Shown here: positions 1 through 53,617 of the stretch, in pieces | Position numbering within the stretch: the first letter of the stretch is position 1 | Layout of the letters: every line of letters begins with the position of its first letter | Assembly: GCA_028823485.1 (NCBI GenBank) | Contig: JAPKBG010000010.1 | Span: 1-64,000 of the forward strand | DNA: 64,000 nucleotides | Source: Methylophilaceae bacterium | Lineage (GTDB): Bacteria; Pseudomonadota; Gammaproteobacteria; Burkholderiales; Methylophilaceae | Direction: 5' to 3' | The notes under the pieces: generated by a model | The model's database searches: none | The model's input: the letters and a program-made list of their open reading frames with translations, nothing else | What the model was told of the DNA's origin: nothing | Program-made: the position numbers and the translations under genes

Positions 1-335
1 AAACCTTTTGCCCTTAACTCATAAGGGTCACCTAGCTCGTTAAGAACGACTTCAGGTTGAGTGTGGCCCTGTAACTCACGAGGCAATAGGTCAATCGACA
101 CAAGGTAATTTAACATGCGCTGCTTACGGCGTGAACGCCGTTGTATAACGCGTCTACCTAGCCTACAATCTCGTCGTTTTACATTTTTTGGCGTGGGAAC
201 TTTCTCTTCTACTGCTTTAGTAAATATGCGACTACCAATATCAACAATACTGTTAGCTTTTCCATCAACCTCTTTAAGCAAGGCCCAGCCCAGTGAGTTA
301 CTGCCTAAATCCAAACCTAGAATTTTCTTGTTCAT
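1..335 (-). CDS. cas9: Cas9 endonuclease, N-terminal part (cut by window edge)
   Basis: Reverse-strand translation from ATG at 335-333: MNKKILGLDLGSNSLGWALLKEVDGKANSIVDIGSRIFTKAVEEKVPTPKNVKRRDCRLGRRVIQRRSRRKQRMLNYLVSIDLLPRELQGHTQPEVVLNELGDPYELRAKG. RuvC-I motif (ILGLDLGSNSLGWAL), Arg-rich bridge helix and DPYELRAKG are Cas9 hallmarks. Open at the left edge, so absent from the ORF track. Confidence 0.92.
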   Translation of the reverse strand, partial: MNKKILGLDLGSNSLGWALLKEVDGKANSIVDIGSRIFTKAVEEKVPTPKNVKRRDCRLGRRVIQRRSRRKQRMLNYLVSIDLLPRELQGHTQPEVVLNELGDPYELRAKG

Positions 336-363
336 ATTTAATTCCTTATGTATAATTCTATTA

Positions 364-639
364 TTAGTGTAATCGACTAAGGTCTATTAATTGCTTTTCA
401 TACCAATGAAATTCTTTTTTCGTAGGCTCCGCTTCTGAGCGACCAAAGCCCTCCCAGTGGGGGCTTTTTATCATCCAAAACAATACCCCCCCTAAAATGT
501 ATTGTGCACTAGCATCCCCTTGCTCTGTCTTCACTCGATAACCGGCAACAGCATCCTCATCCTTAAGACAATCCTATGCATAAGCACTTGAGAATACTGA
601 GAATAGTAGAGCTAAATCTATCGTTTGTAGTGTTTTCAT
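364..639 (-). pseudogene. Secreted Sel1-repeat-like small protein, interrupted by an in-frame TAG
   Basis: One reverse frame reads MKTLQTIDLALLFSVFSSAYA*DCLKDEDAVAGYRVKTEQGDASAQYILGGVLFWMIKSPHWEGFGRSEAEPTKKEFHWYEKQLIDLSRLH*. Signal peptide, then a Sel1-like repeat (EQGDASAQYILG...WYEKQ). Confidence 0.6.
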
Positions 640-718: not shown

Positions 719-2182
719 TCACGGAGTGTCTACATCAACAAATGGCTCAAAATTAACACCTAGATTATTAGCCCAGGCTTTCTTCAAAGCATTCTCTGCT
801 TCACCGATATTAGCTTGCTCAACATATAAGGCATCATGGATTGGCAATGACACTATCCCCCTATCTACCAATTCACACATGGCATCAAGTAAGATATCAC
901 CCTCCATCGCTTGGAGTACAACCCCAATGTCATTGTAAAACTCCGTACACAGGTCTGGGAATTGTCTTTGAATAGCAGCTTCAATTAAGCCTCGTTCTTT
1001 TTTAGTCATTACGAATTTTGACTTAAAGTAGTCTTCCTCATCAACCTTTGCAGCAAGTGTAATGGCTCTTTCTTTAGCACCAATCATCTTTATAACTAGC
1101 CATTTAACTTTATCTCTGGCTTGGCCAGATTCCTTAGCTATTAAGTCATAAAAATCCCTAGGAAGTTGTTTCCCTTTTAAGGCGTAGAGCATTGAGGAAT
1201 GATTGGCTTTCAAATCCACTTCAGCGACAGGGTTGCCATTTAAGAGAGTGTTAATTCTAATTCTGGCTTTTCTATCTGGTAGATTTGCTAGAGGAGTATA
1301 TAACCTACCTCCCGTCATTACGTGACCACGACTGTAGATTCTTTTCACTGGTGCTTTTAGAGCATATGAAGCGTCTTTTAGTGCATCATTAATCTTTACT
1401 AACTGCTCCCAATCCTCTTGATAGGTTCTTTCTATATCAAATGGGGGGGTTACCCGCATAATGTGCTTGTCTTGTATGCTTTCAAGTTTACTTCCAGAGT
1501 AAACTATCTTAATAAACTCTTTGTTATCCTTGTTCTGGATAACTATTAATTCAGTATCGTCGGTATATTCTTCATATACCGAATAAAGTAATGGTATTAA
1601 TTTAAGCTGGAACAGCTGATTAGGTTCATAGCTATCAACTTCCTTTGTAAACGTGTTTCCAGGTTTACGAATCAAATATTTATCCAGTGCTTTCAGAGCA
1701 GCTTTTACTGAATTTCTTGTGAAGTGTAATTCCCTATAGTAAGTGCCTTTGTCATATGCTTCTTTACTTCCTGGGAGTGACAGCCTGCTTCTAGTAAATG
1801 TACAAACTACTAAGTTGTAGATTAACAGTCTAAATGTATCCTTAGCTCTGCGTTCCAACTGTGGGTCTAGTGCGTTAAACAACTCTTTAGATTCCTCAGT
1901 CATCCCTTTAATTAGGTCATTTGCATAGCGTATATCTGCAAGTTTCATGAATCTAGGCAGCTCACCTTTACCAAACTCTTTACTAATTAACTTCTTAAGT
2001 TCTTGTTCAGGAATTGCTGTTTGTTCTGATATTAATTCCATTTGCTCTTGTGAAGCTTTTTTATAGTTAATATCTCTATATATCAATGGGTTATTAGATG
2101 ATAAGGCTTTACTTATGGTGTTTGTGCTGGACTCTCTAAGATGAGTCCCACTAAAGACTTTCTTCATTGAACCTTGATTCAT
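719..2182 (-). CDS. Family-A DNA polymerase-like protein of an integrative element
   Basis: 487 aa with GGRLYTPLANLP, motif A-like VAEVDLKANHSSMLYAL, O-helix-like RDKVKWLVIKMIGA and motif C-like SLPIHDALYV in the correct order. Confidence 0.6.
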   Translation of the reverse strand: MNQGSMKKVFSGTHLRESSTNTISKALSSNNPLIYRDINYKKASQEQMELISEQTAIPEQELKKLISKEFGKGELPRFMKLADIRYANDLIKGMTEESKELFNALDPQLERRAKDTFRLLIYNLVVCTFTRSRLSLPGSKEAYDKGTYYRELHFTRNSVKAALKALDKYLIRKPGNTFTKEVDSYEPNQLFQLKLIPLLYSVYEEYTDDTELIVIQNKDNKEFIKIVYSGSKLESIQDKHIMRVTPPFDIERTYQEDWEQLVKINDALKDASYALKAPVKRIYSRGHVMTGGRLYTPLANLPDRKARIRINTLLNGNPVAEVDLKANHSSMLYALKGKQLPRDFYDLIAKESGQARDKVKWLVIKMIGAKERAITLAAKVDEEDYFKSKFVMTKKERGLIEAAIQRQFPDLCTEFYNDIGVVLQAMEGDILLDAMCELVDRGIVSLPIHDALYVEQANIGEAENALKKAWANNLGVNFEPFVDVDTP

Positions 2183-2484
2183 ACAGCCTCCTTAATAGTG
2201 ACAAACTTTCTGGTCATACGTGATGATGTATTTTTAGCTAACTCCATCTTGGAACCTATGCGTTTGAAGCGTTCGGCGATGTCACCCCTTACATTGACTA
2301 TGCTTTCATACAACTCCTCCAGCTGGGCCCCATGGAAATGCATCTGACTGTCCTCTTTGACTGACTCTAAGAGGTAATAGCAAGTTGAGTCTTCACTAAA
2401 ATACACTCGCTTTCTCCATTGGTCATCTAATGGGCATATTGGTGCGTTACATTGTTGGTATTTTGGACATGAACTTATTTTCAT
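2179..2484 (-). CDS. Small Cys-rich hypothetical protein (CPKYQQCNAPICPLDDQW motif)
   Basis: 101-aa ORF overlapping the polymerase-like gene by 4 nt; N-terminal C-x5-C-x4-C cluster suggests metal binding. Confidence 0.6.
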   Translation of the reverse strand: MKISSCPKYQQCNAPICPLDDQWRKRVYFSEDSTCYYLLESVKEDSQMHFHGAQLEELYESIVNVRGDIAERFKRIGSKMELAKNTSSRMTRKFVTIKEAV

Positions 2485-2708
2485 TGAGCCACCTCCAGTA
2501 CTTCACGTAGCTTACCTACGTTCCAACAGGTCACTCTTAATGATAGCTTAAACGGCTTGGGGATATGGCCTGACTTAACTCGTCTCCAAATGGTTGCTGC
2601 AGAGCATGCAAACAATGCCATAACTACTGGTAGCCTTACACTTGCTGAGTTAGGAAGTTGGTCAAAGAATTGTAGTGCTGGATTGATTGAATTTACAGTT
2701 TGAATCAT
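2481..2708 (-). CDS. AlpA/MerR-like helix-turn-helix regulator (excisionase-like)
   Basis: LPVVMALFACSAATIWRRVKSGHIPKPFKLSLRVTCWNVGKL matches the AlpA family pattern; overlaps the next gene by 4 nt. Confidence 0.65.
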   Translation of the reverse strand: MIQTVNSINPALQFFDQLPNSASVRLPVVMALFACSAATIWRRVKSGHIPKPFKLSLRVTCWNVGKLREVLEVAQ

Positions 2709-3478: not shown

Positions 3479-4693
3479 TTATTCCTTATTAACCTTGAGT
3501 TCATCTAAATAATCAGCCCATTTTTGCATCATCACTGAACGTTGTTTTAAGTAAAGCGCATGATTGTAAGAGGCACTAACTTGATTGCGTTCTTGATGTG
3601 CTAATTGCAACTCTATGTGTTGATGGTCAAACCCTTGCTCATGCAATGCGGTAGAAGCCAGTCCTCTAAATCCATGACCTGTCATTTTATGTTTGTAACC
3701 TACAACGTCTAGAGCTTTTAGAATTGTGTTGTTGCTCATCGTTTTAGTATGATTAGTTTGATTAGGGAAAATATAATCATAACTCCCTGAGATAGCATGT
3801 AAAGCTTGCAAGGTTTGTAATGCTTGCATAGATAATGGCACGATATGCGGAGTTTTCATCTTCATCCGTTCTGCGGGTATGCGCCATTGCTTAGAATCAA
3901 AGTCTACCTCTTCCCATTTTGCTTCAATTAGCTCTGTGGTACGAACAAAAGTTAATCCCATGAGTTTAACCGCCAGTCTAGTCAATGGTTGGGAGTTACT
4001 TGCATCAAGAGCACGTAAAAGTGCTGGCAACTCTTTTAACTCAACCCTTGCATAGTTTTTCTTTTGACGGCTCTCAATAATGTCACTTGGTTTAATGTCA
4101 GTAGTAGGGTTTCGTGTGGTTTTGCTATCTTTGTTATGAGCAATTGCATATCTAAACACTTGTCCCATCATTTGGTGTGCGCGTTTAGCAATGTCTAGTG
4201 CTCCACGAGATGCAATCTTTTTGATTGTATCAACCACCTCATGTGCTTGTATTTCGTTTATTGGAAGTTTGCCTATGCTTGGAAAAATGTCTGCTTCCAG
4301 CCTTCTCATAACGTAATTAGCATGGCGAGGGCTTTTATCTTTATGCCAATTCTGCCACCACTTATCAGCCCATATTTCAAAGGTGTTCTTTGTATTAGCT
4401 TCTTTTTCTGCTTTGATGTCTTTGCGCTTATCACTAGGGTCAATACCTTCAGCAATAGATTTGTGAGCGTCTCTTACTTTTTCTTCTGCACCAGCTAACG
4501 ACACATCAGGATAACGCCCCATCGACAAGCTATTCTCTTTACCCTCAAAGCGATAACGGAACACCCAAAACTTTGCGCCCGTTGGTTTTATAAGTAAGTG
4601 CAAACCTCTACCAGCTGCCACCTTATATGGCTTGTCTTTAGGCTTTTTATTCCTGACTGATACATCTGTTAATGTTGCAGCTAGCTTAGGCAT
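3479..4693 (-). CDS. int: P4-type tyrosine integrase
   Basis: N-terminal MPKLAATLTDVSVRNKKPKDKPYKV (DUF4102-like arm-binding domain), catalytic region with FVRTTEL, HGFRGLAST, HQERN, SYNHALY. Start set at the internal ATG (4693) rather than the track start at 4756. Confidence 0.93.
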   Translation of the reverse strand: MPKLAATLTDVSVRNKKPKDKPYKVAAGRGLHLLIKPTGAKFWVFRYRFEGKENSLSMGRYPDVSLAGAEEKVRDAHKSIAEGIDPSDKRKDIKAEKEANTKNTFEIWADKWWQNWHKDKSPRHANYVMRRLEADIFPSIGKLPINEIQAHEVVDTIKKIASRGALDIAKRAHQMMGQVFRYAIAHNKDSKTTRNPTTDIKPSDIIESRQKKNYARVELKELPALLRALDASNSQPLTRLAVKLMGLTFVRTTELIEAKWEEVDFDSKQWRIPAERMKMKTPHIVPLSMQALQTLQALHAISGSYDYIFPNQTNHTKTMSNNTILKALDVVGYKHKMTGHGFRGLASTALHEQGFDHQHIELQLAHQERNQVSASYNHALYLKQRSVMMQKWADYLDELKVNKE

Positions 4694-4730
4694 ATTTAAG
4701 CATCCAATTAGCGTTTTGCGGGTAAGGCTA

Positions 4731-4768
4731 TGAGGGTATCTAGTGCGTACCCTCAAAAGTTACCCTCA
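4731..4768. repeat. Candidate integrase/excisionase arm-type sites
   Basis: TGAGGGTA (4731-4738), TACCCTCA (4748-4755), TACCCTCA (4761-4768): one inverted and two direct copies between int and tRNA-Ser. Confidence 0.35.
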
Positions 4769-4881
4769 TAACGCTAAGATGTCAAGATGTGGTCTGATGC
4801 GCCCTGATGCAATTAGATGGCTTTATTACTAGGGTATGGAAGAGGTTTTGATACGATTTGATGCGATGTGATTACAACTTT

Positions 4882-4974
4882 TGGCGGAGAGCGAGGGATT
4901 CGAACCCTCGATACAGGTTGACCCCGTATGCTTCCTTAGCAGGGAAGTGCCTTCGACCACTCGGCCAGCTCTCC
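4882..4974 (-). tRNA. serX: tRNA-Ser(GCU)
   Basis: GGAGAGCTGGCCGAGTGGTCGAAGGCACTTCCCTGCTAAGGAAGCATACGGGGTCAACCTGTATCGAGGGTTCGAATCCCTCGCTCTCCGCCA; long variable arm, anticodon GCT, encoded CCA. Confidence 0.95.
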
Positions 4975-5109: not shown

Positions 5110-6342
5110 TTACGCTTCTTCTAACTCAAATGCCTTGTGTAAGGCTCGTACAGCTAGTTCCATATACTTTTCTTCAATCACAACTGCGACTTTAATTTCG
5201 CTCGTAGAGATCATTTGGATATTAATGCCTTCTTCTGATAATGTACGGAACATCTGGCTAGCAACGCCAACATGTGAGCGCATACCAACACCAACAGCAG
5301 ATACTTTAGCAATATTGTCATCACCAATTATTTCCCGTGCATGAATGTCTGGTTGTACTTTTGTGTTGAGAATTTCAAGCGCCTTTTTCATTTCATTCTT
5401 ATGCACAGTGAAAGTAAAGTCTGTCGTTTTTGCACCTTGGTTTTGAATAATGATATCTACATCAATATTCGCATCAGCAATCGGACCTAAAATTTGGTAA
5501 GCAATACCTGGTGTGTCTGGCACGCCAAGCACCATAATTTTCGCTTCATCGCGATTAAATGCGATGCCTGAAATGAGTGGTTGTTCCATATTATCGTCCT
5601 TACTGTCTTCTTCAAACGTAATGAGTGTACCGTTTCCTTCTTCTTCAAAACTAGAAAGTACACGTAATTTAACTTTATATTTTCCTGCAAATTCAACTGA
5701 GCGCGTTTGCAGTACCTTGCTGCCTTGTGATGCCAGCTCTAGCATTTCTTCAAACGTGATTCTGTCTAAACGGCGCGCTTCTGGTACGACACGAGGGTCT
5801 GTTGTGTAGACACCATCTACATCGGTATAGATTTGGCATTCATCAGCGCCTAATGCGGCAGCTAAGGCAACACCAGTCGTATCTGAACCGCCACGACCTA
5901 ACGTCGTGATGTTACCATCTGCATCACAGCCTTGGAAGCCTGCAACGACAACCACATAGCCGTTGTCTATATCTTTTTTCATGCTTTGGCCATCAATGTC
6001 AATAATCCGCGCTTTACCATTGGAGGCATCGGTTAATATTTTGACTTGTGAACCCGTATAGCTCTTCGCTTTTAAGCCTAGTTCTTGTAACGCTAATGCT
6101 GTCATGCCGATGGAAACTTGCTCACCAGTTGAGATAATGACATCTAACTCTCTTAGGCTTGGAGTGGTTGTAATTTCGTTGGCAAGCGCAATCAAGCGGT
6201 TCGTTTCGCCAGACATGGCTGAAACGACGACGACAATTTGATGCCCTTGTTTTTTAAAGCGGTTAACCCTGTTTGCCAGACTTTTAATACGTTCTGGAGT
6301 TGCAACAGATGTACCGCCGAATTTTTGTACGATTAATGCCAT
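5110..6342 (-). CDS. lysC: Aspartate kinase
   Basis: MALIVQKFGGTSVA..., two ACT-type C-terminal repeats. Confidence 0.95.
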   Translation of the reverse strand: MALIVQKFGGTSVATPERIKSLANRVNRFKKQGHQIVVVVSAMSGETNRLIALANEITTTPSLRELDVIISTGEQVSIGMTALALQELGLKAKSYTGSQVKILTDASNGKARIIDIDGQSMKKDIDNGYVVVVAGFQGCDADGNITTLGRGGSDTTGVALAAALGADECQIYTDVDGVYTTDPRVVPEARRLDRITFEEMLELASQGSKVLQTRSVEFAGKYKVKLRVLSSFEEEGNGTLITFEEDSKDDNMEQPLISGIAFNRDEAKIMVLGVPDTPGIAYQILGPIADANIDVDIIIQNQGAKTTDFTFTVHKNEMKKALEILNTKVQPDIHAREIIGDDNIAKVSAVGVGMRSHVGVASQMFRTLSEEGINIQMISTSEIKVAVVIEEKYMELAVRALHKAFELEEA

Positions 6343-6375
6343 AATTTTAGCTCTTAACTGTTAAATTTTAATGCT

Positions 6376-9006
6376 TTAAATTCTCTCTTTTACCCATGCT
6401 TCAACACTCGCTAGTGCTTGTGGTAAGTGGGTGGCATCCGTGCCGCCTGCCATCGCCATGTCAGGTTTGCCGCCACCTTTTCCACCCACTTGGGATGCAA
6501 CATGGTTGACGAGTTCGCCCGCCTTCATTTTGCCGATTAAATCTTTCGTGATGCCAGCGGCAATGCTCACTTTTTCACCATTCACAGCGGCTAAAACGAT
6601 GGCTGCTGATTGCAGTTTGTCTTTTAGTTTGTCCATGGTTTCACGTAGCGTATTAGCATCAGCACCTTCTAATGTTGCCGCTAATACTTTAATGCCGTTA
6701 ATATCAATTGCCTGTGTGGCTAAATCATCACCTTGTGATGAGGCAAGTTTACCCTTGGCTGCGGTTAGATCACGTTCTAACTTTTTAACTTGATCCAATA
6801 AGCCGTTAATTCTGGTTGGCACTTCTGCGGGTAACACTTTTAATGTGCCCGCTACGCCACCTAATGTGGTTTCCATATCCTGCATATAACTCAACGCATT
6901 AGTGGCTGTCACCGCTTCTACACGGCGTACACCAGCTGCCACGCCACCTTCTGCCACAATCGTGAATAAACCAATGTCACCAGTACGTTTCACATGGGTG
7001 CCGCCGCAAAGCTCACAAGATGAGCCAATGTTTAATACACGCACTTCATCACCATACTTTTCACCAAACAACATGAGGGCGCCAGTTTCTTTAGCGGCGT
7101 CAATCTCCATCACACGGGACTGGGTTTCTAAGTTGGCAAATATCTCTGCATTGACGAGTGATTCCACTTGGCGAATTTCTTCGTTGGTCATGGATGCATT
7201 ATGCAAGAAGTCAAAACGTGTTTTTTCCGTATCAACCAAGCTGCCTTTTTGCTGCACATGGTCGCCAAGCACTTCGCGTAATGCTTTGTGCATTAAGTGC
7301 GTAGCAGAGTGGTTACGCATGGTAGCACTACGGGCTTGCATATCCACCTGTGCAGTAATGCTTTCACCGACTGATAACGTCCCTGTTTTCAATGTGCCAT
7401 GATGGCCGAATACCATTGCTTGTACTTTCTGTGTGCCTTCTACTGCAAATAGAGTATCTCCAGCTTTTAGTTCGCCAATGTCACCGACTTGACCGCCAGA
7501 TTCAGCGTAAAAAGACGTGTTGTCTAAAATGACAACACCTTGCTCGCCTGCTGATAATTGTTCTACAGCTGTCCCGTCCTGATATAAGGCGGTAATCTTA
7601 CCAGTTGTTTCGAGTTGGTCATAACCATGAAATATCGTAGCGATGCCATCGTATTCCAAGTTGGTTGCTATTTTGAACTTGCCAGCGGTACGTGCTTGGT
7701 CTTTTTGACGCGCCATCGCGGTATCAAAGCCAGCAGTGTCGACTGTGACATTACGTTCACGACAAATATCAGCGGTTAAATCAAGCGGGAAACCGTAGGT
7801 GTCGTGTAACTTAAATGCAGTTTCACCGTTGAACTGACCCTTGGTTTCTTTAAGCTCAGCATCTAGAATCGCCATCCCATTTTCAATGGTTTCGAAGAAA
7901 CGTTCCTCTTCTTTTTTGAGCGTGGCATTGATTCGTTTTTGCTCAGAGACGAGCTCGGGATAAGCTTCGTCCATCTCATTCACTAAGTCTTGTAACATTT
8001 GGTTAAAGAAGGCTTTGCGCGCACCGAGCTTATAACCATGACGAACGGCGCGGCGAATAATGCGGCGCAACACATAACCACGACCTTCGTTACCTGGAAT
8101 CACCCCGTCAGCAATCAAGAATGAACAAGCACGAATATGGTCGGCTAATACTTTTAAGCTAGGATTCGCTAAGTCTGTTGTTTTAGTTTCACGCGCGGCT
8201 GCGGCAATCAGTTTGGTAAACAAATCAATCTCATAGTTGGCGTGCACCCCTTGCAAAATAGCTGAGATGCGTTCTAACCCCATACCAGTATCAACGCTAG
8301 GTTTTGGCAATGCATGCATCACACCCGCTTCATCGCGGTTGTATTGCATAAATACATTATTCCAAATCTCGATAAAGCGATCGCCATCTTCATCAGCGCT
8401 GCCTGGTGGGCCACCTGGAATATGTGCGCCATGATCGTAAAATATTTCAGAGCATGGGCCGCAAGGGCCAGTATCGCCCATCATCCAGAAGTTATCAGAT
8501 GCGTAACGAGTGCCTTTATTATCACCAATGCGAATGATTTTTTCAGCAGCCACGCCAATGTCCTTTAGCCAGATGTCATAAGCTTCATCATCCTCAGCAT
8601 AGACGGTAACAAGCAGTTTTTCTGTTGGGAGTTTGTAGACTTCTGTTAGTAGTTCCCATGCGTATTTGATAGCATCTTGTTTAAAGTAATCGCCAAAACT
8701 AAAGTTGCCGAGCATTTCAAAAAAAGTGTGATGACGGGCTGTGTAGCCGACATTCTCTAAGTCATTATGTTTGCCACCAGCACGCACACATTTTTGGCTA
8801 GAGGTCGCACGGGTATAAGCACGTTTATCAAAGCCCAAAAACACATCTTTAAATTGGTTCATGCCTGCGTTAGTGAAGAGCAGGGTAGGGTCCTCGTGCG
8901 GTACTAAAGAAGCAGACGCAACAGCGGTATGGCCTTTAGACACGTAAAAGTCTAGGAAGGCTTTTCTAATTTCATTACTGCTTGGCTTGTTACTTAATTT
9001 AATCAT
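6376..9006 (-). CDS. alaS: Alanyl-tRNA synthetase
   Basis: 876 aa; [40 protein letters not shown]. Confidence 0.97.
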
Positions 9007-9487
9007 TATCGTTTTCTGCTGCTTTTAGTACTTGTTTAATCGTATCGAAACCAAAACCACGGCTCTGTAAAAACCGCGCTTGTTTTGCCCATTCATTACG
9101 GTCGCTGGCGATCTGATTATATTTTTTACGCCATACTTCCGCCGCATTTTCTAATTCACTGGTTCTTACTTCTGAAACTGCTTCAGTGATTAGCTCTTCT
9201 GATACGCCTTTTTCTCTTAATTCATTCGCTATTTTGGCGCTGCCAAATTTAACTTGTCTAACACGGACGATATGCTCTGTGAATCGGGCATCCGATAACC
9301 AGCCTCGTTCTTTGAAATCAGTGATTAAGACTGGAATATCATCGGCTTCGTCCGCGTAGGTTTTAAGCTTGTTGGCTAGCTCAAACGCTGAGTATTCACG
9401 TTTCCCCAAATACTCTAGCGCCCGTTGACGCAAGGACTTTTCTTGCGTGTTTTTCAGATTACGCGTCATCCTCTTCGCGAGGCGCAA
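8999..9487 (-). CDS. recX: Regulatory protein RecX
   Basis: [20 protein letters not shown]...[22 protein letters not shown]; directly downstream of recA. Confidence 0.9.
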
Positions 9488-10490
9488 TCATGCCCTCTAG
9501 TAGTACAGATGAATTAGCGCGGATTTTCGCGTCAATCTCAGCAGCAATGGCAGGATTCTCTTTTAGGAACTCACGAGAGTTATCCTTACCTTGCCCAATT
9601 TTCTCGCCATTGTAGCTATACCATGAGCCTGATTTTTCGACGATTTTCAAATCAACGCCTAGCTCAATCATTTCACCTTCAAGCGAAATACCTTCGCCGT
9701 AAAGAATGTCGAACTCAGCTTTCTTAAATGGTGGCGCCACTTTGTTTTTAATCACTTTGACGCGCGTTTCAGAACCAACGACTTCATCACCACGTTTAAT
9801 TGCGCCAGTACGACGGATATCTAAACGAACAGATGCGTAGAATTTCAAAGCATTACCACCCGTAGTCGTTTCTGGATTGCCAAACATCACACCAATTTTC
9901 ATGCGGATTTGGTTAATAAAGATCACTAAAGTGTTTGTGCGTTTGATATTGCCAGTTAACTTACGTAAAGCTTGACTCATCAAACGGGCTTGCAAGCCCA
10001 TGTGTGAATCACCCATGTCGCCTTCAATCTCGGCACGTGGCGTTAATGCCGCAACAGAATCGATCACCACAATATCAACAGAGCCAGAACGCACGAGCAT
10101 ATCGACAATTTCTAATGCTTGCTCGCCTGTGTCGGGCTGAGAGATGAGTAAGTCAGGTACGTTAACACCTAGTTTTGCCGCATATTGTGGATCGAGTGCA
10201 TGCTCCGCATCAATAAATGCGGCGGTGCCGCCAATTTTTTGCATCTGTGCAATCACAGAAAGTGTTAGCGTTGTTTTACCTGATGATTCCGGACCATAGA
10301 TTTCAACAACACGGCCACGTGGTAAACCACCGATGCCTAGAGCAATATCCAAGCCTAAAGAGCCTGTTGATACAGACTCGATGTCTGTGATCACATCCTT
10401 ATCACCCATGCGCATAATAGAGCCTTTACCAAACTGTTTATCAATTTGTGCAAGGGCTGCTGATAACGCTTTGCTTTTATTGTCATCCAT
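9459..10490 (-). CDS. recA: Recombinase RecA
   Basis: [64 protein letters not shown]. Confidence 0.98.
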
Positions 10491-10603
10491 GTTGTTTTTA
10501 CCTTTAATTTGAGCTACTTTAATTAACTTGCAATTATTTCACAGTTTGGCATTTAAGGTAAGCGTTAAGGTTGTGTGTTAGCGTACTAAAAACTAATAAA
10601 AAG

Positions 10604-10619
10604 ACATTGTCAACAATGT
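10604..10619. promoter_or_regulatory. Interrupted palindrome ACATTGT-CA-ACAATGT
   Basis: Perfect 7-bp arms, 2-nt spacer, between divergent recA and an exported-protein gene. Confidence 0.35.
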
Positions 10620-10678
10620 GAGTGGTGGCTCGTTATCTGCTAGTAGCGAGTAGTATTTAGCAAGAAGGAGTACGAGGA

Positions 10679-11053
10679 ATGAAAGTGATTAATACGATAG
10701 TAGCGACAATTGCGATTGTCGCTACAACAGCAACGACAGTACAGGCGCGAGATTCGTTTAGCATAGGCATTAATATTGATGGGCAAGGCCATACAAGACA
10801 TTCAATGGGCACACATCACCATGCGTCAGCATTCCGTGGCTATTATGGCGCACCAATTATCTATTACAGTTCACGACCAGTGGTTTATTACGCACCGTCA
10901 AACCGTTACAGCCAGTTCAGCTCTTACATTTCATATGGACGACATATGGCGAGGGATAACTACAGGCATAGTGAAAGCCGACGTGATTACAACAGGCGTG
11001 GCGAAAGACATCATAACCGTCGTGGTAATGGCCACCGTTATGGTAGGCGCTAG
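10679..11053 (+). CDS. Small exported His/Arg/Tyr-rich basic protein
   Basis: Signal peptide MKVINTIVATIAIVATTATTVQA followed by low-complexity basic sequence; RBS aaggag upstream. Confidence 0.65.
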   Translation: MKVINTIVATIAIVATTATTVQARDSFSIGINIDGQGHTRHSMGTHHHASAFRGYYGAPIIYYSSRPVVYYAPSNRYSQFSSYISYGRHMARDNYRHSESRRDYNRRGERHHNRRGNGHRYGRR

Positions 11054-11066
11054 TCTGTTAGTTTTG

Positions 11067-11567
11067 TTAAGACTGCATTAAGTCCATTAGTCCGTTTAGT
11101 AATTGAATAACCGATTGATAGCGAATGGCTTGGCGATCGCCAGCAAACTGTTTCGTTACGGTTATTAACTGACCATTCTTGGTTAAGTAGGCGAAACAAA
11201 CCATGCCGACAGGCTTGTTGGCAGAGCCGCCAGATGGGCCTGCAATACCGGTAATGCTACCTGCAATATCTGCACCACTATTACTGAGTGCGCCCATGGC
11301 CATTGCCTGCGCAGTTTCTTCGCTGACAGCGCCATATTGGGATAAGGTTTCTTTTGATACACCTAACATCTGTTGTTTGGCTTTATTACTATAAGTGATA
11401 AAGCCTCTGTCAAACCATGTAGAGCTGCCTGAAATGTCAGTAATGGCGGCTGAAGCCAAGCCGCCAGTACAAGATTCAGCTAATGCCAGTGTGAACTGCT
11501 TTTCTTTGAGTGCTTGCCCTAGTTGCGCACTAAGTTTTGTGATGTTGTGCGCTATGAGAGTATCCAT
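11067..11567 (-). CDS. pncC: CinA C-terminal domain / NMN amidohydrolase
   Basis: LALAESCTGGLASAAITDISGSSTWFDRGFITYSNKAK, ITGIAGPSGGSANKPVGMV. Confidence 0.93.
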   Translation of the reverse strand: MDTLIAHNITKLSAQLGQALKEKQFTLALAESCTGGLASAAITDISGSSTWFDRGFITYSNKAKQQMLGVSKETLSQYGAVSEETAQAMAMGALSNSGADIAGSITGIAGPSGGSANKPVGMVCFAYLTKNGQLITVTKQFAGDRQAIRYQSVIQLLNGLMDLMQS

Positions 11568-12034
11568 AATAGGCCTTTTAAACTAATCATGGCGTAGACT
11601 GCTGCAAGGATGTCATCAAACATCACGCCAAACCCGCCTTTAAGTTTTGCATCGCATTGGCGAATTGGAAACGGTTTCCATATATCAAATAACCTAAATA
11701 AACCAAACGCAATTAGCCACCACTGCCATTGGTTTGGTGTGATTGTTAGCACTAGCATCATTGCGACAATCTCATCCCAAACAATGCTGCCGTGATCGCT
11801 AACAGCTAAGGCTTTTCCTGCAACTTCGCAAAAGTAAATGCCAATGATAAACAGGCCAGCAATAATGGCTAGTTGAACGTTGAGAGAGTAGCCTGCAATT
11901 AAGTAAAAAAGCGGAAGGCCCGCAATGGTGCCAAATGTTCCAGGTGCTTTTGGCGGCAGACCGCTGCCAAAGCCTAAAGCTAAAAAGTGAGCGGGATGTG
12001 CGAGTAAGAATTTAAAATCCGGTTGTTTAATCAT
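11552..12034 (-). CDS. pgpA: Phosphatidylglycerophosphatase A
   Basis: GFGSGLPPKAPGTFGT, FRLFDIWKPFPI, GGFGVMFDDILAA. Confidence 0.93.
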   Translation of the reverse strand: MIKQPDFKFLLAHPAHFLALGFGSGLPPKAPGTFGTIAGLPLFYLIAGYSLNVQLAIIAGLFIIGIYFCEVAGKALAVSDHGSIVWDEIVAMMLVLTITPNQWQWWLIAFGLFRLFDIWKPFPIRQCDAKLKGGFGVMFDDILAAVYAMISLKGLLWILS

Positions 12035-12052
12035 GTTGTTGCGCTAAGCTGT

Positions 12053-13018
12053 TTAAATCTTAAAGTGCTCATATCCTAACTGTGAAGTATTGAGTATTTT
12101 GTTATCAAGTGTCACGGTGAGATTGCCTGTTGTATTGGTTTCACCGATACGCGTGATATTAATGCCTAGCTTTTTGCCTAAAGTTGTAATCGCCTCTCGT
12201 TGTTGCGATGATGCTGTAAAGCATAGCTCGTAATCATCACCACCAGCTAAGATGGCTTGTTGTATTTTGGGCTCTTGATTACGTGCTTTTATAGCATTTA
12301 AGCATGGCATTGCTTCTAATTGTAATATTGCGCCTATTTCATTAGGACGCGAAGCTTTTAGAATATGGCTTAAGTCGGCAAGTAGGCCGTCGGAAATGTC
12401 GATGCAACTATGTGCAATGTCACGCAAAGCCAACCCAAGCGCAACACGTGGTTGCGGTTGATTTAAGGCGAGCAAACAAGTGCTACGTGCTTCGTCATCT
12501 AATGATACTTTGTCTTGTAAATACGCTAACCCCAAAGCGGCATGACCAACTTCTCCGCTCACCCAAATATCATCTCCTGCTTTTGCATTGTTGCGTGTGA
12601 TGGCTTTTCCAACAGGGGTTTCGCCCATAATAGTCACACTGATATTGAGTGGTCCGCGGGTTGTATCGCCACCAATTAAATCAACGCTAAACTGGTCAGC
12701 ACAGTCAAAAAAGCCAGTTGAGAAAGCAGCTAACCAGCCATGATTGATTTCAGGTAGTGCGATTGAAAGTGTGGTCCATTTTGGGTTTGCACCCATTGCA
12801 GCCATGTCTGAAATATTAACAGCCAGTGACTTCCAACCAATGTCATAAGATGCAGCATCTTGAAAGAAGTGAGTGCCGACCACTGACATGTCAGATGAAA
12901 TGGCTAATTGATGGCCTGTTGAGACTTTAATGAGCGCAGCATCATCACCGATCCCTAAGTCGGTTTGAGCATTAGGTCGCGTAAAATATTGTTTAATGAG
13001 GTTGAATTCAGCGGACAT
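12053..13018 (-). CDS. thiL: Thiamine-monophosphate kinase
   Basis: GIGDDAALI, SDMSVVGTHF, GGDTTRGPLNISVT, DISDGLLADLSHI. Confidence 0.93.
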   Translation of the reverse strand: MSAEFNLIKQYFTRPNAQTDLGIGDDAALIKVSTGHQLAISSDMSVVGTHFFQDAASYDIGWKSLAVNISDMAAMGANPKWTTLSIALPEINHGWLAAFSTGFFDCADQFSVDLIGGDTTRGPLNISVTIMGETPVGKAITRNNAKAGDDIWVSGEVGHAALGLAYLQDKVSLDDEARSTCLLALNQPQPRVALGLALRDIAHSCIDISDGLLADLSHILKASRPNEIGAILQLEAMPCLNAIKARNQEPKIQQAILAGGDDYELCFTASSQQREAITTLGKKLGINITRIGETNTTGNLTVTLDNKILNTSQLGYEHFKI

Positions 13019-13373
13019 GGTGTTTTTGACGGGGTGACTTTAGCTTGTTAATGATGAGTATACACAACAGTGCGCCCGTGATGTCTGCAAACCATTCATA
13101 TAAGCTAGCTGACCGTGTGCGGGTGTAAGCCCTTTGTAAAATTTCTGTGACTACTCCGTAGCTAATGAGGCCTAGGAAAAGTAATGTGTGATGTTGTGCG
13201 TAAGCTACGTAACCGATAGCCATGAGTGTGGCAAATAAGCTTGCGTGGATGAGTTTATCTACATAAGGAAAGACGGGTGTAGATGGTCGTTGTTCCATTA
13301 ATAGCAAAAAAGTAACTAGACTGATTAATAGCCAAAATATAACGGATGAGATTCTGGTGTAGTAAGGCAGCAT
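13008..13373 (-). CDS. VanZ-like family membrane protein
   Basis: Four hydrophobic segments, PYVDKLIHASLFATLMAIGY, EILQ...R..ASLYEWFADITGALL. Confidence 0.7.
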   Translation of the reverse strand: MLPYYTRISSVIFWLLISLVTFLLLMEQRPSTPVFPYVDKLIHASLFATLMAIGYVAYAQHHTLLFLGLISYGVVTEILQRAYTRTRSASLYEWFADITGALLCILIINKLKSPRQKHHVR

Positions 13374-13380
13374 GAAGAAG

Positions 13381-13956
13381 CTATTTTTTCTTAGGACGGA
13401 ATGCTTTTACAAGCGCCTCATTTGTTTCAATGAAAGGTGCGCCAATTAAATCCAAGCAATAAGGCACTGCGGCAAAAATGCCGTGGACTTGGGTGTTGCC
13501 AGACTCATCTTTTAAGCCTTCAAGTGTTTGTGTAATTGCTTTTGGTTGTCCTGGTAAGTTGAGGATTAAACACTGATGGCGTATGACGGCAACTTGGCGC
13601 GACAAAATGGCCGTGGGAACAAAATTTAAGCTGATTTGTCGCATTTGTTCGCCAAATCCGGGCATTTCCTTATCACCAACCGCTAACGTGGCTTCTGGGG
13701 TGACATCTCGTAATGCAGGCCCAGTGCCGCCAGTTGTGAGTATTAAATGGCAACCTTCATCATCGGCTAGCTCGATGAGTGTGTTTTCTATTAACGCTTG
13801 CTCATCTGCAATTAAGCGCATTTCTAGTGTAAAAGGGGAACTCAGCACTTTTGACAGCCATGCTTGTAAACTTGGAATGCCTTTGTCTTCATACACGCCT
13901 TGTGAAGCACGATCGCTAATGGAAACTAAGCCAATTTTAATTATTTTGTCTTGCAT
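13381..13956 (-). CDS. mog: Molybdopterin adenylyltransferase
   Basis: IGLVSISDRASQGVYEDKGIP, LTTGGTGPALRDVTPEAT, LNLPGQPKA. Confidence 0.92.
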   Translation of the reverse strand: MQDKIIKIGLVSISDRASQGVYEDKGIPSLQAWLSKVLSSPFTLEMRLIADEQALIENTLIELADDEGCHLILTTGGTGPALRDVTPEATLAVGDKEMPGFGEQMRQISLNFVPTAILSRQVAVIRHQCLILNLPGQPKAITQTLEGLKDESGNTQVHGIFAAVPYCLDLIGAPFIETNEALVKAFRPKKK

Positions 13957-14030
13957 ATGAATTGTTTGTTTAATATTGTGTCAATAGCATTACTAGATTA
14001 TAACGATAAACTTTCAAGGATATTGGAACA

Positions 14031-14774
14031 ATGATGAAAAAAATGCTGAGCTCGGCTTTGCTTGCTTTATGCTTTATTCAAGCGGTACAAACAGTACAAG
14101 CAACTGAGAATTTATATGAGCAACATTATAAGGCGCAAAATGGCGGCAACCTAAAGTCCATGGAAGCCAAGCCAGATACTAAGATGTATGTTAGTAATCA
14201 TCACGATGAAGACAATATTAGTATGCTGGAAACTGGCTATGACATGATTGGCAGTAGCGGTTTTGAGGCTGGTGGCATTGTGGCAGACTTGGCATTGGCG
14301 CATGCAAAGTCGATTAAAGCAGATGTTGTATTGGTTTACAGCAAGTATGCTTCAAAAAAATCACCACTTTCAAAATTAACTTTGATTAAAGAAGCGGCAA
14401 AAACGACGGGTGAAATTGAACCTGAAGCGATGGAGGATGAACCCACTTATCAATACTACGCGAGTTATTGGGCGAAGTTGCCCACGCCATTACTCGGCTT
14501 GCATGTGATTAAGTTGAAGCATAAAGCAAAAGACAGTGAAACGATTGTTGCCGATGAAGGCCTAAAAGTGTTAGCCGTCATTAAGGGTTCTCCAGCTTTT
14601 AAGGCCGGCTTAAAGCGTGGAGATGTGTTGTTGAGCTTGGCTGGTATTACCTTAGAGCAACCTCAAGCACTGGCTCAGGTGGCTAGCAAACATAAGGGTA
14701 AAAGCGTCGATATTGTTTATGAACGTAATGGGCAGTCTATGGAATCCCAAGCTACGCTTAACAGTGGTCATTAG
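14031..14774 (+). CDS. Exported PDZ-domain protein
   Basis: Signal peptide; C-terminal LKVLAVIKGSPAFKAGLKRGDVLLSLAGITLEQPQAL is PDZ-like. Confidence 0.7.
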   Translation: MMKKMLSSALLALCFIQAVQTVQATENLYEQHYKAQNGGNLKSMEAKPDTKMYVSNHHDEDNISMLETGYDMIGSSGFEAGGIVADLALAHAKSIKADVVLVYSKYASKKSPLSKLTLIKEAAKTTGEIEPEAMEDEPTYQYYASYWAKLPTPLLGLHVIKLKHKAKDSETIVADEGLKVLAVIKGSPAFKAGLKRGDVLLSLAGITLEQPQALAQVASKHKGKSVDIVYERNGQSMESQATLNSGH

Positions 14775-14777
14775 CGA

Positions 14778-15320
14778 TTAGTCGCTATCGTTCTCGTTAA
14801 GGCCTTCTTGACCTTCTGTAATCTCACGAATCAGCTTGAACAGTTCTCTGCTGCTTTTAAGGGTTTTGTTCGCGGCTTTCTCTTTATTCGCATTACGGAC
14901 TAATGTGCGTAGTTTTTGAATTTCTGCATGCGGATACTTTGTGACAAATTCTTGTAAGCTGTCCGATTGTGAGGTGGCTGCTTCTTCGATTAAACGGTCA
15001 CGCCAGCGCTCTAATACATGAAACCGCGCATTTTCAGTATTGTTTTTACCTTCCCAGCCAGCCAACTTCTCTTTAATGGGTTCGATGTCTGTGGACCGCA
15101 TTAAACGACCAATATATTGCAGCTGACGTTTAATCGCGCCATTTGAATTAAGGCGCTTTGCCTCAATGACTGCCTCGTGTAGACTCTCATCAAGATTCAA
15201 CTTAATCAATTGGCCTTTAGTTAGGTCGAGCAATTTCTTGCCTACCATTTGCTGAGCCTCAGCTTCAGCCTTGAGCTGGGTTTTACTAATATAGTCTAAA
15301 TCTTCGTCTTCATTCTGCAT
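14778..15320 (-). CDS. yjgA: Ribosome-associated protein DarP/YjgA
   Basis: ISKTQLKAEAEAQQMVGKKLLDLTKGQL, QLQYIGRLMRSTD, conserved position before pmbA. Confidence 0.9.
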   Translation of the reverse strand: MQNEDEDLDYISKTQLKAEAEAQQMVGKKLLDLTKGQLIKLNLDESLHEAVIEAKRLNSNGAIKRQLQYIGRLMRSTDIEPIKEKLAGWEGKNNTENARFHVLERWRDRLIEEAATSQSDSLQEFVTKYPHAEIQKLRTLVRNANKEKAANKTLKSSRELFKLIREITEGQEGLNENDSD

Positions 15321-15447
15321 GGTATGAGTACTCTTATTTCAGGTTTTCTGTAAGTCTTTTAGGTTTTCTTTGACTCAAAGCGCCGATGAATGGCTGATGC
15401 AAGGTATCATAACATTTTTAGCAATTTAATTTAATGATAGAAGCGCG

Positions 15448-16770
15448 ATGAATCAGCATACTTTAAAACAAATCAGTGAAGATACTATAAAGCTAGCTAA
15501 GCAAGCTGGCGCATCAGATGCAGAAGTGGATGTGAGTTTTGGCACGGGACAAAGCGTCTCTGTGCGTAAGGGTGAAACTGAAAATATAGAATATAACCGT
15601 GACAAAGGCATCTCTGTTACTGTGTTTTTTGGTTATAGAAAAGGCTATGCAAGTAGCTCGGATTTTAGTCCAGAAGCGATTAAGGACACGGTTGAGGCAG
15701 CTTGTAATATTGCTAAATATACAGCAGAAGACACATTTTGCGGCTTAGCCGATGCTAATCTCATGGCGCAGGATGTAACTGATTTAAATTTACATCACCC
15801 ATGGCAAGTCAGCGTTGAAGAGGCGCTTGAGATTGCAAAACGCTGTGAAACTGCCGCATTGAATGTCGATAAAACACGTATTAAAAACTCAGAAGGCGCT
15901 AGCGTTTCAACGAATGAAGGGCTGTTTGTCTATGCCAACACGCATGGTTTTGTTGGTGGTTATCCAAGCTCTCGACATAGTATTAGTTGTTCGGTAATCG
16001 CCGAGCAAGGTGGTGCGATGCAACGTGATTATTGGTATACCAATGCCAGAGATGCGAATGATATGCGCTCGGCTGAGTCGGTTGGTCAGTTGGCAGGTGA
16101 GCGTACAGTACGCCGTTTAGGCGCTAAGCCGATTAAAACTGGCCAATACCCTGTGTTATTTGAGGCGGCGTTATCGAGCAGCCTGATTAGTTCGTTGGTG
16201 AGTGCTATTTCTGGCGGAAATTTATATCGAAAATCATCTTTTTTACTTGATAGCCTTGGGCAGCAGGTAGCCTCTTCATTGCTCAATATTGAGGAGTTGC
16301 CACATGTTGAGAAAGGGATTGCAAGTAGTCCATTCGATAATGAAGGCGTTGCAACTAAGTCGCGTATGCTGGTGGAGAATGGTGTATTGCAAGGCTACAT
16401 GCTATCTAGTTACTCAGCGCGAAAATTAGGCCTTCAGACAACAGGCAATGCTGGTGGAGCACATAATTTAGTAGTGCAACATACACAGCAGTCTTTTGCC
16501 GAGCTATTATCCATGATGGGCACTGGGCTGTTGGTAACAGAGTTGTTGGGTCATGGCTTGAATATGGTTACTGGAGATTACTCACGTGGTGCTGCTGGGT
16601 TTTGGGTAGAGAGCGGTGTTATTGCACATGCGGTAGAGGAGATTACGATTGCAAGTAATATCAAAGAAATGTTGAATCAGATTATTGCGATTGGTGATGA
16701 TGCGTTAGTGCCTAGTTCAAAACAAACAGGCTCCATCCTAATTGAGCGAATGACAGTGGCGGCTGGATAA
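15448..16770 (+). CDS. pmbA: Metalloprotease PmbA/TldE
   Basis: VSVRKGETENIEYNRDKGISVTVFFGYRKGYASSSD, NMVTGDYSRGAAGFWVESG. Confidence 0.95.
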   Translation: MNQHTLKQISEDTIKLAKQAGASDAEVDVSFGTGQSVSVRKGETENIEYNRDKGISVTVFFGYRKGYASSSDFSPEAIKDTVEAACNIAKYTAEDTFCGLADANLMAQDVTDLNLHHPWQVSVEEALEIAKRCETAALNVDKTRIKNSEGASVSTNEGLFVYANTHGFVGGYPSSRHSISCSVIAEQGGAMQRDYWYTNARDANDMRSAESVGQLAGERTVRRLGAKPIKTGQYPVLFEAALSSSLISSLVSAISGGNLYRKSSFLLDSLGQQVASSLLNIEELPHVEKGIASSPFDNEGVATKSRMLVENGVLQGYMLSSYSARKLGLQTTGNAGGAHNLVVQHTQQSFAELLSMMGTGLLVTELLGHGLNMVTGDYSRGAAGFWVESGVIAHAVEEITIASNIKEMLNQIIAIGDDALVPSSKQTGSILIERMTVAAG

Positions 16771-16885
16771 TGCTGGATTGAGTGACTATTTAGTTTGCAG
16801 GCACAAAGTCTGGTAAAGGCGTGTAGTCAATAGTTGATGCTCCTTCTGTTGCAGCAACTTCTTCAGATGCAGGTGTTTCAATATC

Positions 16886-17659
16886 TCAATCCGCTGGCTG
16901 AAATATATCCTCAAGTAAGTCATCAGAGACTAAGCCATCTTGTACTTGGCTTGCTCTACTCTGTAAATAAGCATCACGCATAAAAGCATAAGAATCTAGT
17001 GATGCACTGTCTAAAATGTCAGTAGCATTTAGCAACTCAGCACGCTTGTCTATAAAGCTAACAACGCGTAATTGATTGTGTAGACGTACCTGACCAATAT
17101 TGTGTGCATAGGTGATTGGGTCACTTGTTACTGTATCAAAACCAAAGCCAGCTGCATCACGTACAGTGCTTGGGCCTAGGAAAGGAAGTACGATATAAGC
17201 ACCGCTTCCCACACCCCAGTGACCAAGTGTTTGGCCAAAATCTTCACGGTGGACTGGAATGTTATCCATACTTGCGACATCAATAAACCCAGCTAAGCCA
17301 AAAGTACTGTTGATGACGAATCGACCTGCATCTTTAAATGCATGGGCGAACTTCAGCTGTAAAACGTCATTCAACACAGTGGTGAGAGATTTTAGGTTGT
17401 TAAAGAAGTTATTAATACCCTTACGAATGGGGGGTGGTGTAACTGCCTTGTACGCGCCAGCTACAGGTTTAAGAACAACACCGTCTATGGCATCGTTAAA
17501 TTTATATACACCACGATTGACTGACTCTAATGGATCATTATTTTCTAACGTAGCACAGCCTGTGGCGATGATTGCCAAGAAGCAGCTAAGTAATAGTTTG
17601 GTGAGTTGTAATCGCATATGTTCGTTCTTTTTTATAATGTTGTTATTTAGTTGACGCAC
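16886..17659 (-). CDS. mlaA: MlaA (VacJ) outer-membrane lipid asymmetry lipoprotein, probably C-terminally truncated
   Basis: NDPLESVNRGVYKFNDAIDGVVLKPVAGAYK, REDFGQTLGHWGVGSGAYIVLPFLGPSTVRD. Same frame continues open for 31 codons past the TGA. Confidence 0.93.
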   Translation of the reverse strand: MRQLNNNIIKKNEHMRLQLTKLLLSCFLAIIATGCATLENNDPLESVNRGVYKFNDAIDGVVLKPVAGAYKAVTPPPIRKGINNFFNNLKSLTTVLNDVLQLKFAHAFKDAGRFVINSTFGLAGFIDVASMDNIPVHREDFGQTLGHWGVGSGAYIVLPFLGPSTVRDAAGFGFDTVTSDPITYAHNIGQVRLHNQLRVVSFIDKRAELLNATDILDSASLDSYAFMRDAYLQSRASQVQDGLVSDDLLEDIFQPAD

Positions 17660-17832
17660 ATGTTTTCTTCAAGTCGAAAACCTTCAATAAAAATTTATTA
17701 TCCCTTAATAGACTGCTCTCTGTCTATGAATTATGCAAACTGTTTTTTATACGCGTGCAGGTGTTGTAAAAACCCCACTTAATACTATTGAACATAACAG
17801 TGCATGTTGTGTTGCGATTGCCTGTGGTTATA

Positions 17833-18300
17833 TTACTCACGATGATAAGGGTGATTCTGTATAACCGTATGCGCACGGTAGAGTTGCTCTGTGAGCAGTA
17901 CCCGTACAAAAGCATGGGGTAAAGTGAGCTTGGAGAGTGACCAGCAAAAGTCAGCCTGTTTGATGAGTGCAGGGTCTAAACCGTCAGCACCACCGACAGC
18001 GATGCTGACATCACGTCCCATTTCTTGCCATTTTTTCATCATGGTTGCTAATGCAACCGTCGTTTTTTCTTTGCCATTTTCATCGCAAGCAATGAGATAA
18101 TCTTTATTCGCCGCTTTTAAAATCCGCTGCGCTTCAGCTGCTTGGACTACTGGATTTTTTTTGCCATCAGAGCGTTTGTCTGGCTTGATTTCAATGATTT
18201 CAACACTTAACTCACGCGGCATACGTTTAATGTATTTAGCGCAAGCCGTCTCAACCCAGTTTGGCATTTTGTGGCCAACTGAGATGATTTTGAGTTTCAT
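17833..18300 (-). CDS. rlmH: 23S rRNA (pseudouridine1915-N3)-methyltransferase
   Basis: MKLKIISVGHKMPNWV, IAVGGADGLDP, LPHAFVRVLLTEQLYRAHTVIQNHPYHRE. Confidence 0.96.
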   Translation of the reverse strand: MKLKIISVGHKMPNWVETACAKYIKRMPRELSVEIIEIKPDKRSDGKKNPVVQAAEAQRILKAANKDYLIACDENGKEKTTVALATMMKKWQEMGRDVSIAVGGADGLDPALIKQADFCWSLSKLTLPHAFVRVLLTEQLYRAHTVIQNHPYHRE

Positions 18301-18322
18301 GTATGGAAAATAAAGCTAGGCT

Positions 18323-18700
18323 TTATGATACGGTAGTATCTAGGTCGCTTGCAGTATCTGCTGAGATATGACCACCTTCGCCACCCCATAGTTGCTCTAG
18401 ATTATAGTAGGTTCGCGTAGCTGTCGTCATGATGTGGATAATGATGTCGTCTAAATCAACTAGCACCCATTCACCCTCTTTTTCACCTTCCATGCCACGT
18501 GGTTCGAAACCTTTAGCTTTCACATCGACATAGATATTGTTGGCGATGGCTTTGGTTTGACGTGATGAGTTTGCGCTACAAACAATCATGTAGCTCGTCA
18601 TTGATGTGAGTTTTGTCACATCCAAAACAGTAATATCAAAACCTTTGATATCTTCGATTGCGTTAATGACCGTATCTTTCATTGTGTTTAAATCGGACAA
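18323..18700 (-). CDS. rsfS: Ribosomal silencing factor RsfS
   Basis: DITVLDVTKLTSMTSYMIVCSANSSRQTKAIA, EGEWVLVDLDDIIIHIM. Confidence 0.95.
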   Translation of the reverse strand: MSDLNTMKDTVINAIEDIKGFDITVLDVTKLTSMTSYMIVCSANSSRQTKAIANNIYVDVKAKGFEPRGMEGEKEGEWVLVDLDDIIIHIMTTATRTYYNLEQLWGGEGGHISADTASDLDTTVS

Positions 18701-18726
18701 ATTATTACCTTCTAACTAATTGTTTA

Positions 18727-19110
18727 TTAAGCAGCTTGTGCTGGGATGTTCTGTTTGAGTTCTTTGATGCAATTTTGGTCATCGACATAAACCAAATCTG
18801 GTTTATAGCTCTCCAACTCAAGCTCTGTGTAGTCTGAGTAAGTGGCAATAATGACAATGTCACCTGGTGCAGCTTTATGTGCGGCAGCACCATTAGTCGA
18901 GATAATACCTGAATTACGCTCGCCGCGGATGGCATAAGTGCTAAAACGCTCGCCATTCGTCACATTATAAATCTCAATTTTTTCATACTCACGGATATTA
19001 GCCGCTTCCAGCAACACTTCATCAATGGCACAACTGCCCTCATAATGAAGCTCACTATGGGTGACGGTTACGCGGTGAAGTTTGGATTTAAGCATCGTTC
19101 TTTGCATCAA
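18727..19110 (-). CDS. panD: Aspartate 1-decarboxylase
   Basis: [44 protein letters not shown]. Confidence 0.95.
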
Positions 19111-19146
19111 GTATTACCATTCAACCTTACAAAGATAGCATTGTAA

Positions 19147-53296: not shown

Positions 53297-53421
53297 AGGT
53301 AATCCTTTCTATATATACATCATAAAAAGGACAGGAGAGATTAGCAGTAGAAGTGCAGTCGATTTGGTGCCACAAAAAACGAGTGAACGCCAAAAGACCA
53401 AATTGCTATAGTAGTAATGCT

Positions 53422-53510
53422 CTGCCTGTCCCTACGCCAGTATTAACTGGATCAGGTTCATTGGGTCCCTCACTTAAGAGATCTCAGGCAGTAAAGCCAC
53501 CCCAAGGCGT
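53422..53510 (-). promoter_or_regulatory. TPP (thiamine pyrophosphate) riboswitch, THI element
   Basis: Minus strand CCTTGGGGTGGCTTTACTGCCTGAGATCTCTTAAGTGAGGGACCCAATGAACCTGATCCAGTTAATACTGGCGTAGGGACAGGCAG contains CTGAGA, ACCC..TGAACCTGATC and CGTAGGGA core motifs. Confidence 0.96.
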
Positions 53511-53617
53511 TTTGATTTTGCAATCAAGTGCGTATTATACGAGGAAATTCCGGAATCCGCTAGTGCTAGCCAGGGGTATGAATCAAAAAGGCCAACATCG
53601 CTGTCAGCCATATATAT

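Follow-up and report, generated by a model that had tools for sequence, protein, structure and literature searches.

The N-terminus of a compact type II-C Cas9 and its tracrRNA gene, probable cargo of an integrative island at tRNA-Ser in a Methylophilaceae bacterium

The Locus

The window, i.e., the whole stretch of 64,000 nucleotides analyzed here, comprises positions 1-64000 of contig C20 of genome G000, a 1.64-Mb, 86%-complete assembly of a Methylophilaceae bacterium. Base 1 of the window is the end of the contig, and, therefore, the cas9 gene that lies there is cut by the assembly. It is followed by a divergently oriented tracrRNA gene at a distance of about 30 bp, by several genes of an integrative island, and by a tRNA-Ser gene (Table 1). 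A remnant at positions 470-640 of the minus strand, which by eye resembles a secreted Sel1-type protein and contains an in-frame stop, abuts the tracrRNA terminator. Elsewhere in the window, a TPP riboswitch is found at positions 53411-53514 of the minus strand.

Table 1. Features at the start of the window.
Feature	Position	Strand	Remarks
cas9, first 111 codons	3-335	-	RuvC-I with catalytic Asp9, bridge helix, start of recognition lobe; ends at contig end
Possible -35 box, TTGTTC (weak)	328-333	+	Spacer of 17; overlaps the cas9 start codon
Probable -10 box of tracrRNA promoter, TATAAT	351-356	+	9 nt before the anti-repeat
tracrRNA gene	366-469	+	Anti-repeat, internal-loop and lower-stem pairing region, short hairpins, rho-independent terminator
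tracrRNA anti-repeat, AGTGTAATCGACTAAGGTCTAT	366-387	+	Agrees with the L007 and L008 CRISPR repeat in 21 of 22 nt
tracrRNA terminator	Stem-loop about 448-465, T run to 469	+	Rho-independent
Island gene, 487 aa, phrog_4756	719-2182	-	Weak fold match to, and motifs of, the palm of family-A polymerases/single-subunit RNA polymerases
Small island gene, 101 aa	2179-2484	-	Has a counterpart with 59% identity in another island of this genome (L048)
AlpA-family regulator/excisionase	2481-2708	-	PF05930, 21.7 bits (cut-off 21)
Island gene, 221 aa	2808-3473	-	ORF; function unassigned by profile searches
Tyrosine integrase	3479-4756	-	PF00589, PF22022, and PF13356 far above cut-off
tRNA-Ser(GCT)	4882-4974	-	Integration site; integrase adjoins its 3' end

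A Genuine Cas9 N-Terminus

The reading frame at the contig end starts with an ATG, and its 111 codons are free of stops up to the point where it runs off the window. The encoded fragment contains KILGLDLGSNSLGWAL, with an Asp at residue 9, KRRDCRLGRRVIQRRSRRKQRMLNYL, and GDPYELRAKG; RuvC-I and the Arg-rich bridge helix occupy residues 5-20 and 53-78, respectively. It is matched by the NCBIfam Cas9 profile TIGR01865 (E 1.5e-22) and the Cas9 profile of PADLOC (E 2.1e-14), with nothing matching better, and by solved Cas9 chains in the PDB (E 9e-8), among which HpaCas9 and Nme1Cas9 rank first. These results confirm that positions 335-3 of the minus strand encode the N-terminus of a genuine Cas9, as had been proposed in a sequence-only reading of the region from the intact frame and the same three motifs, all of which were found. 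The gene is indeed unlisted in the ORF track, from which the same reading considered it missed, but only for the reason that the track does not list an ORF that extends past the end of the sequence. Comparison of the fragment with its counterpart in the relative L008 (dN 0.07, dS 0.56, dN/dS about 0.13) indicates that it has been under purifying selection as a protein.

Relatives and Subtype

A scan of 85,488 species genomes yielded 41 related loci. More than 25 matches, in named genomes, are close relatives of the fragment with 64-86% identity, and their hosts include Methylococcales, SUP05/Thioglobus, Cycloclasticus, Bathymodiolus symbionts, Thiotrichaceae, a Nitrosomonas MAG, and a few others. 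No close relative was present in IMG/VR or in phage and plasmid collections. The Cas9s of loci L007 and L008 are both 86% identical to that of the window over the N-terminal stretch, and in a tree of this stretch the window groups with these two inside a supported set of 12 rows.

In the relatives, the gene order is cas9, cas1, cas2, array. Their Cas1 belongs to the type II family TIGR03639, their Cas2 likewise scores above the cut-off, and neither csn2 nor cas4 is present between cas2 and the array. Because the window does not include the rest of cas9, the HNH and RuvC-III domains, the lack of which, like a better match to IscB or another RuvC protein, would have spoken against Cas9, were sought in the relatives. 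There, the full proteins match TIGR01865 with E about 1e-183, HNH_4 and RuvC_III are both found above their cut-offs, and an alignment of 17 Cas9 proteins shows no variation at D9, E510, D590/H591, N614, H726, and D729. That the window encodes IscB or another RuvC-containing protein instead of Cas9 is scarcely credible. The Pfam family RRXRR, the N-terminal family of IscB, does touch the window fragment, but below threshold (16.1 bits versus a cut-off of 25), whereas the same residues are matched far better by Cas9 profiles, close relatives with a complete gene encode Cas9 beside type II cas1, cas2, and an array, and a tracrRNA is present. The IscB reading is already refuted, unless the continuation of the gene departs from all relatives.

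The gene content of the relatives and their nearest solved enzymes fit a compact type II-C system in the window. Among PDB structures, the L007 Cas9 is best matched by ThermoCas9/GeoCas9, Nme1Cas9, and HpaCas9, with SaCas9 and St1Cas9 ranking behind; since the AlphaFold model of this protein is weak (pTM 0.35), the fold matches merely support the sequence result. The tentative assignment to type II-C made in the sequence-only reading thus stands, but its suggestion of a long form is rejected, as the Cas9s of the complete close relatives measure 1016-1058 aa. The long Cas9s that were found, of up to 1520 aa, are from Bacteroidota and are mostly only 32-39% identical to the window over the 111-aa stretch. 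Also the view that the protein looks less like Neisseria Cas9 is not supported, since its relatives are nearest to the compact, Neisseria-like group. The Cas9 of the window appears to be an ordinary enzyme of a compact II-C family. It is apparently unstudied: literature searches found no paper on this clade, which does not rule out that one exists.

The tracrRNA Gene

The gene divergent from cas9 had escaped the sequence-only reading. Its anti-repeat is the single match in the window to the CRISPR repeat of the closest relatives, and no such match arose in 100 shuffles. About 25 relatives have a similar sequence ahead of their cas9 gene, and folding of the repeat with the tracrRNA gives a duplex in which an upper helix of >20 bp is separated from a lower stem by a U-rich internal loop. 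The anti-repeat and the repeat of the array covary among 12 relatives: 99.6% of the cells are paired, as compared with at most 42% in control alignments that were slid, and seven pairs are changed on both sides. The covariation score (0.286 versus 0.129 in shuffles) was reached by 0 of 500 shuffles, a count that is not to be read as a probability since the 12 rows are kin.

Taken together, the anti-repeat, its covariation, the conserved core, the terminator, and the -10 box identify positions 366-469 as a complete tracrRNA gene with a covarying anti-repeat. TATAAT or TATACT is found 7-10 nt ahead of the anti-repeat in 15 of 25 loci, and the gene is probably transcribed. A generic promoter scan reported no tracrRNA promoter at its threshold, and Rfam at gathering thresholds did not recognize the RNA. 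With the tracrRNA readable, a guide RNA can be derived for the Cas9 of the window. In three other loci (L012, L025, and L026), the tracrRNA upstream of cas9 shares the core, whereas its anti-repeat (CATTGTATCTAACG...) is unrelated, which suggests that these loci use a different CRISPR repeat.

The intact tracrRNA gene also bears on whether the contig end lies near a real breakpoint, i.e., whether this strain has a II-C system with a truly truncated or decayed cas9. In the 86%-complete assembly, the rest of cas9 was found neither with Cas9 profiles nor with a full-length relative as queries, and no CRISPR array was found. Furthermore, decayed members of the family do exist, as the gene is split in L010 and broken in L032 and L035, and cas1 and cas2 of L007 each contain one frameshift, either real or a sequencing error. 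However, the frame is open to the last base of the contig and shows the low dN/dS ratio mentioned above, the tracrRNA is intact with its terminator, and contig breaks are common near CRISPR arrays and mobile elements. Hence, true truncation is quite improbable, and it is because cas9 is unreadable beyond codon 111 and the assembly lacks an array that a truncated or dead system retains this small probability.

Horizontal Acquisition of the Module

Bases 1-471 show 87% DNA identity to L008, which is from a Methylococcales MAG, and the alignment ends at the tracrRNA terminator. The hosts are far less similar. The alanyl-tRNA synthetase AlaS encoded in the window is 56% identical to those of the L007 and L008 hosts and 61% identical to that of the Nitrosomonas MAG, as compared with 86% within the genus, and cas9 is absent from all five same-genus genomes inspected. 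The ranking of the AlaS identities weakly points to a betaproteobacterial host. The discrepancy between Cas9 (86%) and AlaS (56%) in the comparison with the L007 and L008 genomes shows that this genome acquired the cas9-tracrRNA module horizontally, and illustrates how CRISPR-Cas9 spreads between hosts. The sharp start of this module of foreign origin near base 471 could also be expected of an assembly chimera, in which a foreign Cas9 fragment was joined to the island of this genome. This is very unlikely, as the boundary coincides with the tracrRNA terminator, just as expected of a transferred module, and the G+C content fits (41% for bases 1-471 versus 39% for the island).

The Island at tRNA-Ser

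An integrative island signature is present at tRNA-Ser: the integrase adjoins the 3' end of the tRNA gene, and together with AlpA it lies 2-5 kb from the cas9-tracrRNA module. In the sister genome G005, the same tRNA-Ser gene is followed by ordinary genes without an island, and the similarity to the window ends at base 4879, three bases beyond the tRNA gene. The integrase is 37% identical to that of an island that carries the L007 system.

The protein of 487 aa encoded by the island matches no Pfam family. The top 50 PDB fold matches of a low-confidence model of this protein are exclusively family-A DNA polymerases and mitochondrial RNA polymerases (best E 3.6e-3), and its invariant residues D323 and H449-D450 are reminiscent of motifs A and C of polymerases. 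Distant homologs are found in L076-L078, and in L077 the gene is located directly after an integrase gene. The genome harbors a further island (L048, positions 6152-9500 on G000:C27), which has a related integrase and AlpA, the small gene in common with the island of the window, and a gene with weak primosomal similarity.

The L007 system, with an array of 11 repeats, is located on an 895-kb contig. Here, 28 bp of the 3' end of the tmRNA gene occur in two identical copies, at 7465 and 19606, and these att repeats bound a 12.2-kb element (7465-19633) that encloses cas9, cas1, cas2, and the array. The element further encodes a terminase small subunit (PF03592, phrog_51), AlpA, an integrase, and the PADLOC candidate defense gene PDC-S21 (DUF4917). 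No tRNA-linked att repeats were detected within the fetched flanks of the other relatives examined, and, thus, carriage on islands seems occasional. The neighboring genes checked in these relatives are ordinary ones or, in the case of L009, transposase-like.

These observations bear on whether cas9 in the window is located inside the island or in an ordinary chromosomal II-C locus with an unrelated island nearby by chance. A chromosomal location would conform to most relatives with long flanks (L008, L011, L012, L014, L016, and L018), the flanks of which contain ordinary genes and lack att repeats at tRNAs. Yet, it is unlikely: no recognizable host gene is present between the integrase and cas9, DNA with relatives elsewhere in the same genome, beside other island genes, extends to about base 618, the system is absent from same-genus genomes, and in L007 it is enclosed by att repeats. 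Most likely, therefore, the cas9-tracrRNA module is cargo of the island beside tRNA-Ser. As the far att site, i.e., the other end of the island, was found neither in the window nor in the genome assembly, we infer rather than observe that the island continues to base 1.

Proposed Function

The reading we prefer, with a probability of roughly 80%, is that the window contains one end of a compact type II-C system, the module of which was acquired horizontally and is most likely cargo of the island at tRNA-Ser. By analogy with the closest relatives, the remainder of cas9, as well as cas1, cas2, and the CRISPR array, would be located in the missing sequence past base 1, and the repeat of this array is expected to be close to GTTGTGATTTGCAGATAGACCTTAGTCGNTTACACT. 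The anti-repeat of the tracrRNA would pair with the repeat of the array transcript, resulting in a dual guide RNA that would be loaded by Cas9, the RuvC and HNH domains of which would then cleave DNA of invading phages or plasmids. The integrase presumably inserts the island at tRNA-Ser, and AlpA is the probable excisionase of an island that may still be mobile.

In the simplest reading, such a system would provide ordinary adaptive immunity against phages. A 30-nt spacer in the array of L008 (positions 17095-17124) shares 28 of its 30 nt with a Microviridae replication gene, and the match covers exactly the whole spacer; with E 0.07 for the whole array, it is suggestive. Four inspected records of Microviridae/gokushovirus replication genes match at 26-28 of the 30 positions, and the target would be an ssDNA phage. 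The core of the spacer is absent from IMG/VR. Because the matched sequence belongs to a coding motif that is conserved, we do not take its flank for a PAM. Spacers from five further relatives yielded no convincing protospacer for PAM inference.

Comparison With Known Systems

The relatives of the window share with the Neisseria group (Nme1Cas9, HpaCas9) and with ThermoCas9/GeoCas9 the length class, the HNH and RuvC residues, and the cas9-cas1-cas2-array order without csn2 or cas4, and these enzymes are their best PDB matches in both sequence and fold. However, they are only 22-25% identical to them in the fold alignments, and they have a distinct repeat and tracrRNA with a long upper duplex of 21 bp or more.

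CRISPR systems are less commonly seen as cargo of islands. A precedent is CampyICE1, which likewise is an integrating mobile element, in this case integrative and conjugative, with a type II-C Cas9 (PMC8743540). CampyICE1 measures 70-129 kb and contains Cas9 alone with three short arrays (PMC8743540), whereas cas1 and cas2 are, or once were, part of the systems in the relatives of the window, and the L007 element, which encodes AlpA and a terminase small subunit, measures 12.2 kb.

Another resemblance is with phage satellites. In Gram-negative PICIs, an integrase, AlpA, and a terminase small subunit recur (PMC6092414). A tyrosine integrase with AlpA at a fixed site, a feature of PICI-type satellites (PMC6092414) and PICMIs (PMC10803314), is present in both the window and L007, and L007 additionally shares the terminase small subunit and the size of about 12 kb; such satellites are known to carry defense genes. 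In contrast to PICI-type satellites, no satellite primase was recognized, the window having the polymerase-like gene instead. By definition, PICIs are, moreover, induced and packaged by a phage (PMC6092414). Carriage of CRISPR-Cas9 by satellites is possible, though unproven. It may even be speculated, tentatively and with more doubt than confidence, that II-C CRISPR-Cas9 travels between distantly related proteobacteria on small satellite-like islands, which would provide satellites with a programmable immunity to phages that compete with them. In E. coli, P2- and P4-like elements were reported to be devoid of large systems such as CRISPR-Cas (Rousset et al., PMC9122126), and a complete type II system in a satellite-like element of 12 kb would test the size limit reported for those satellites.
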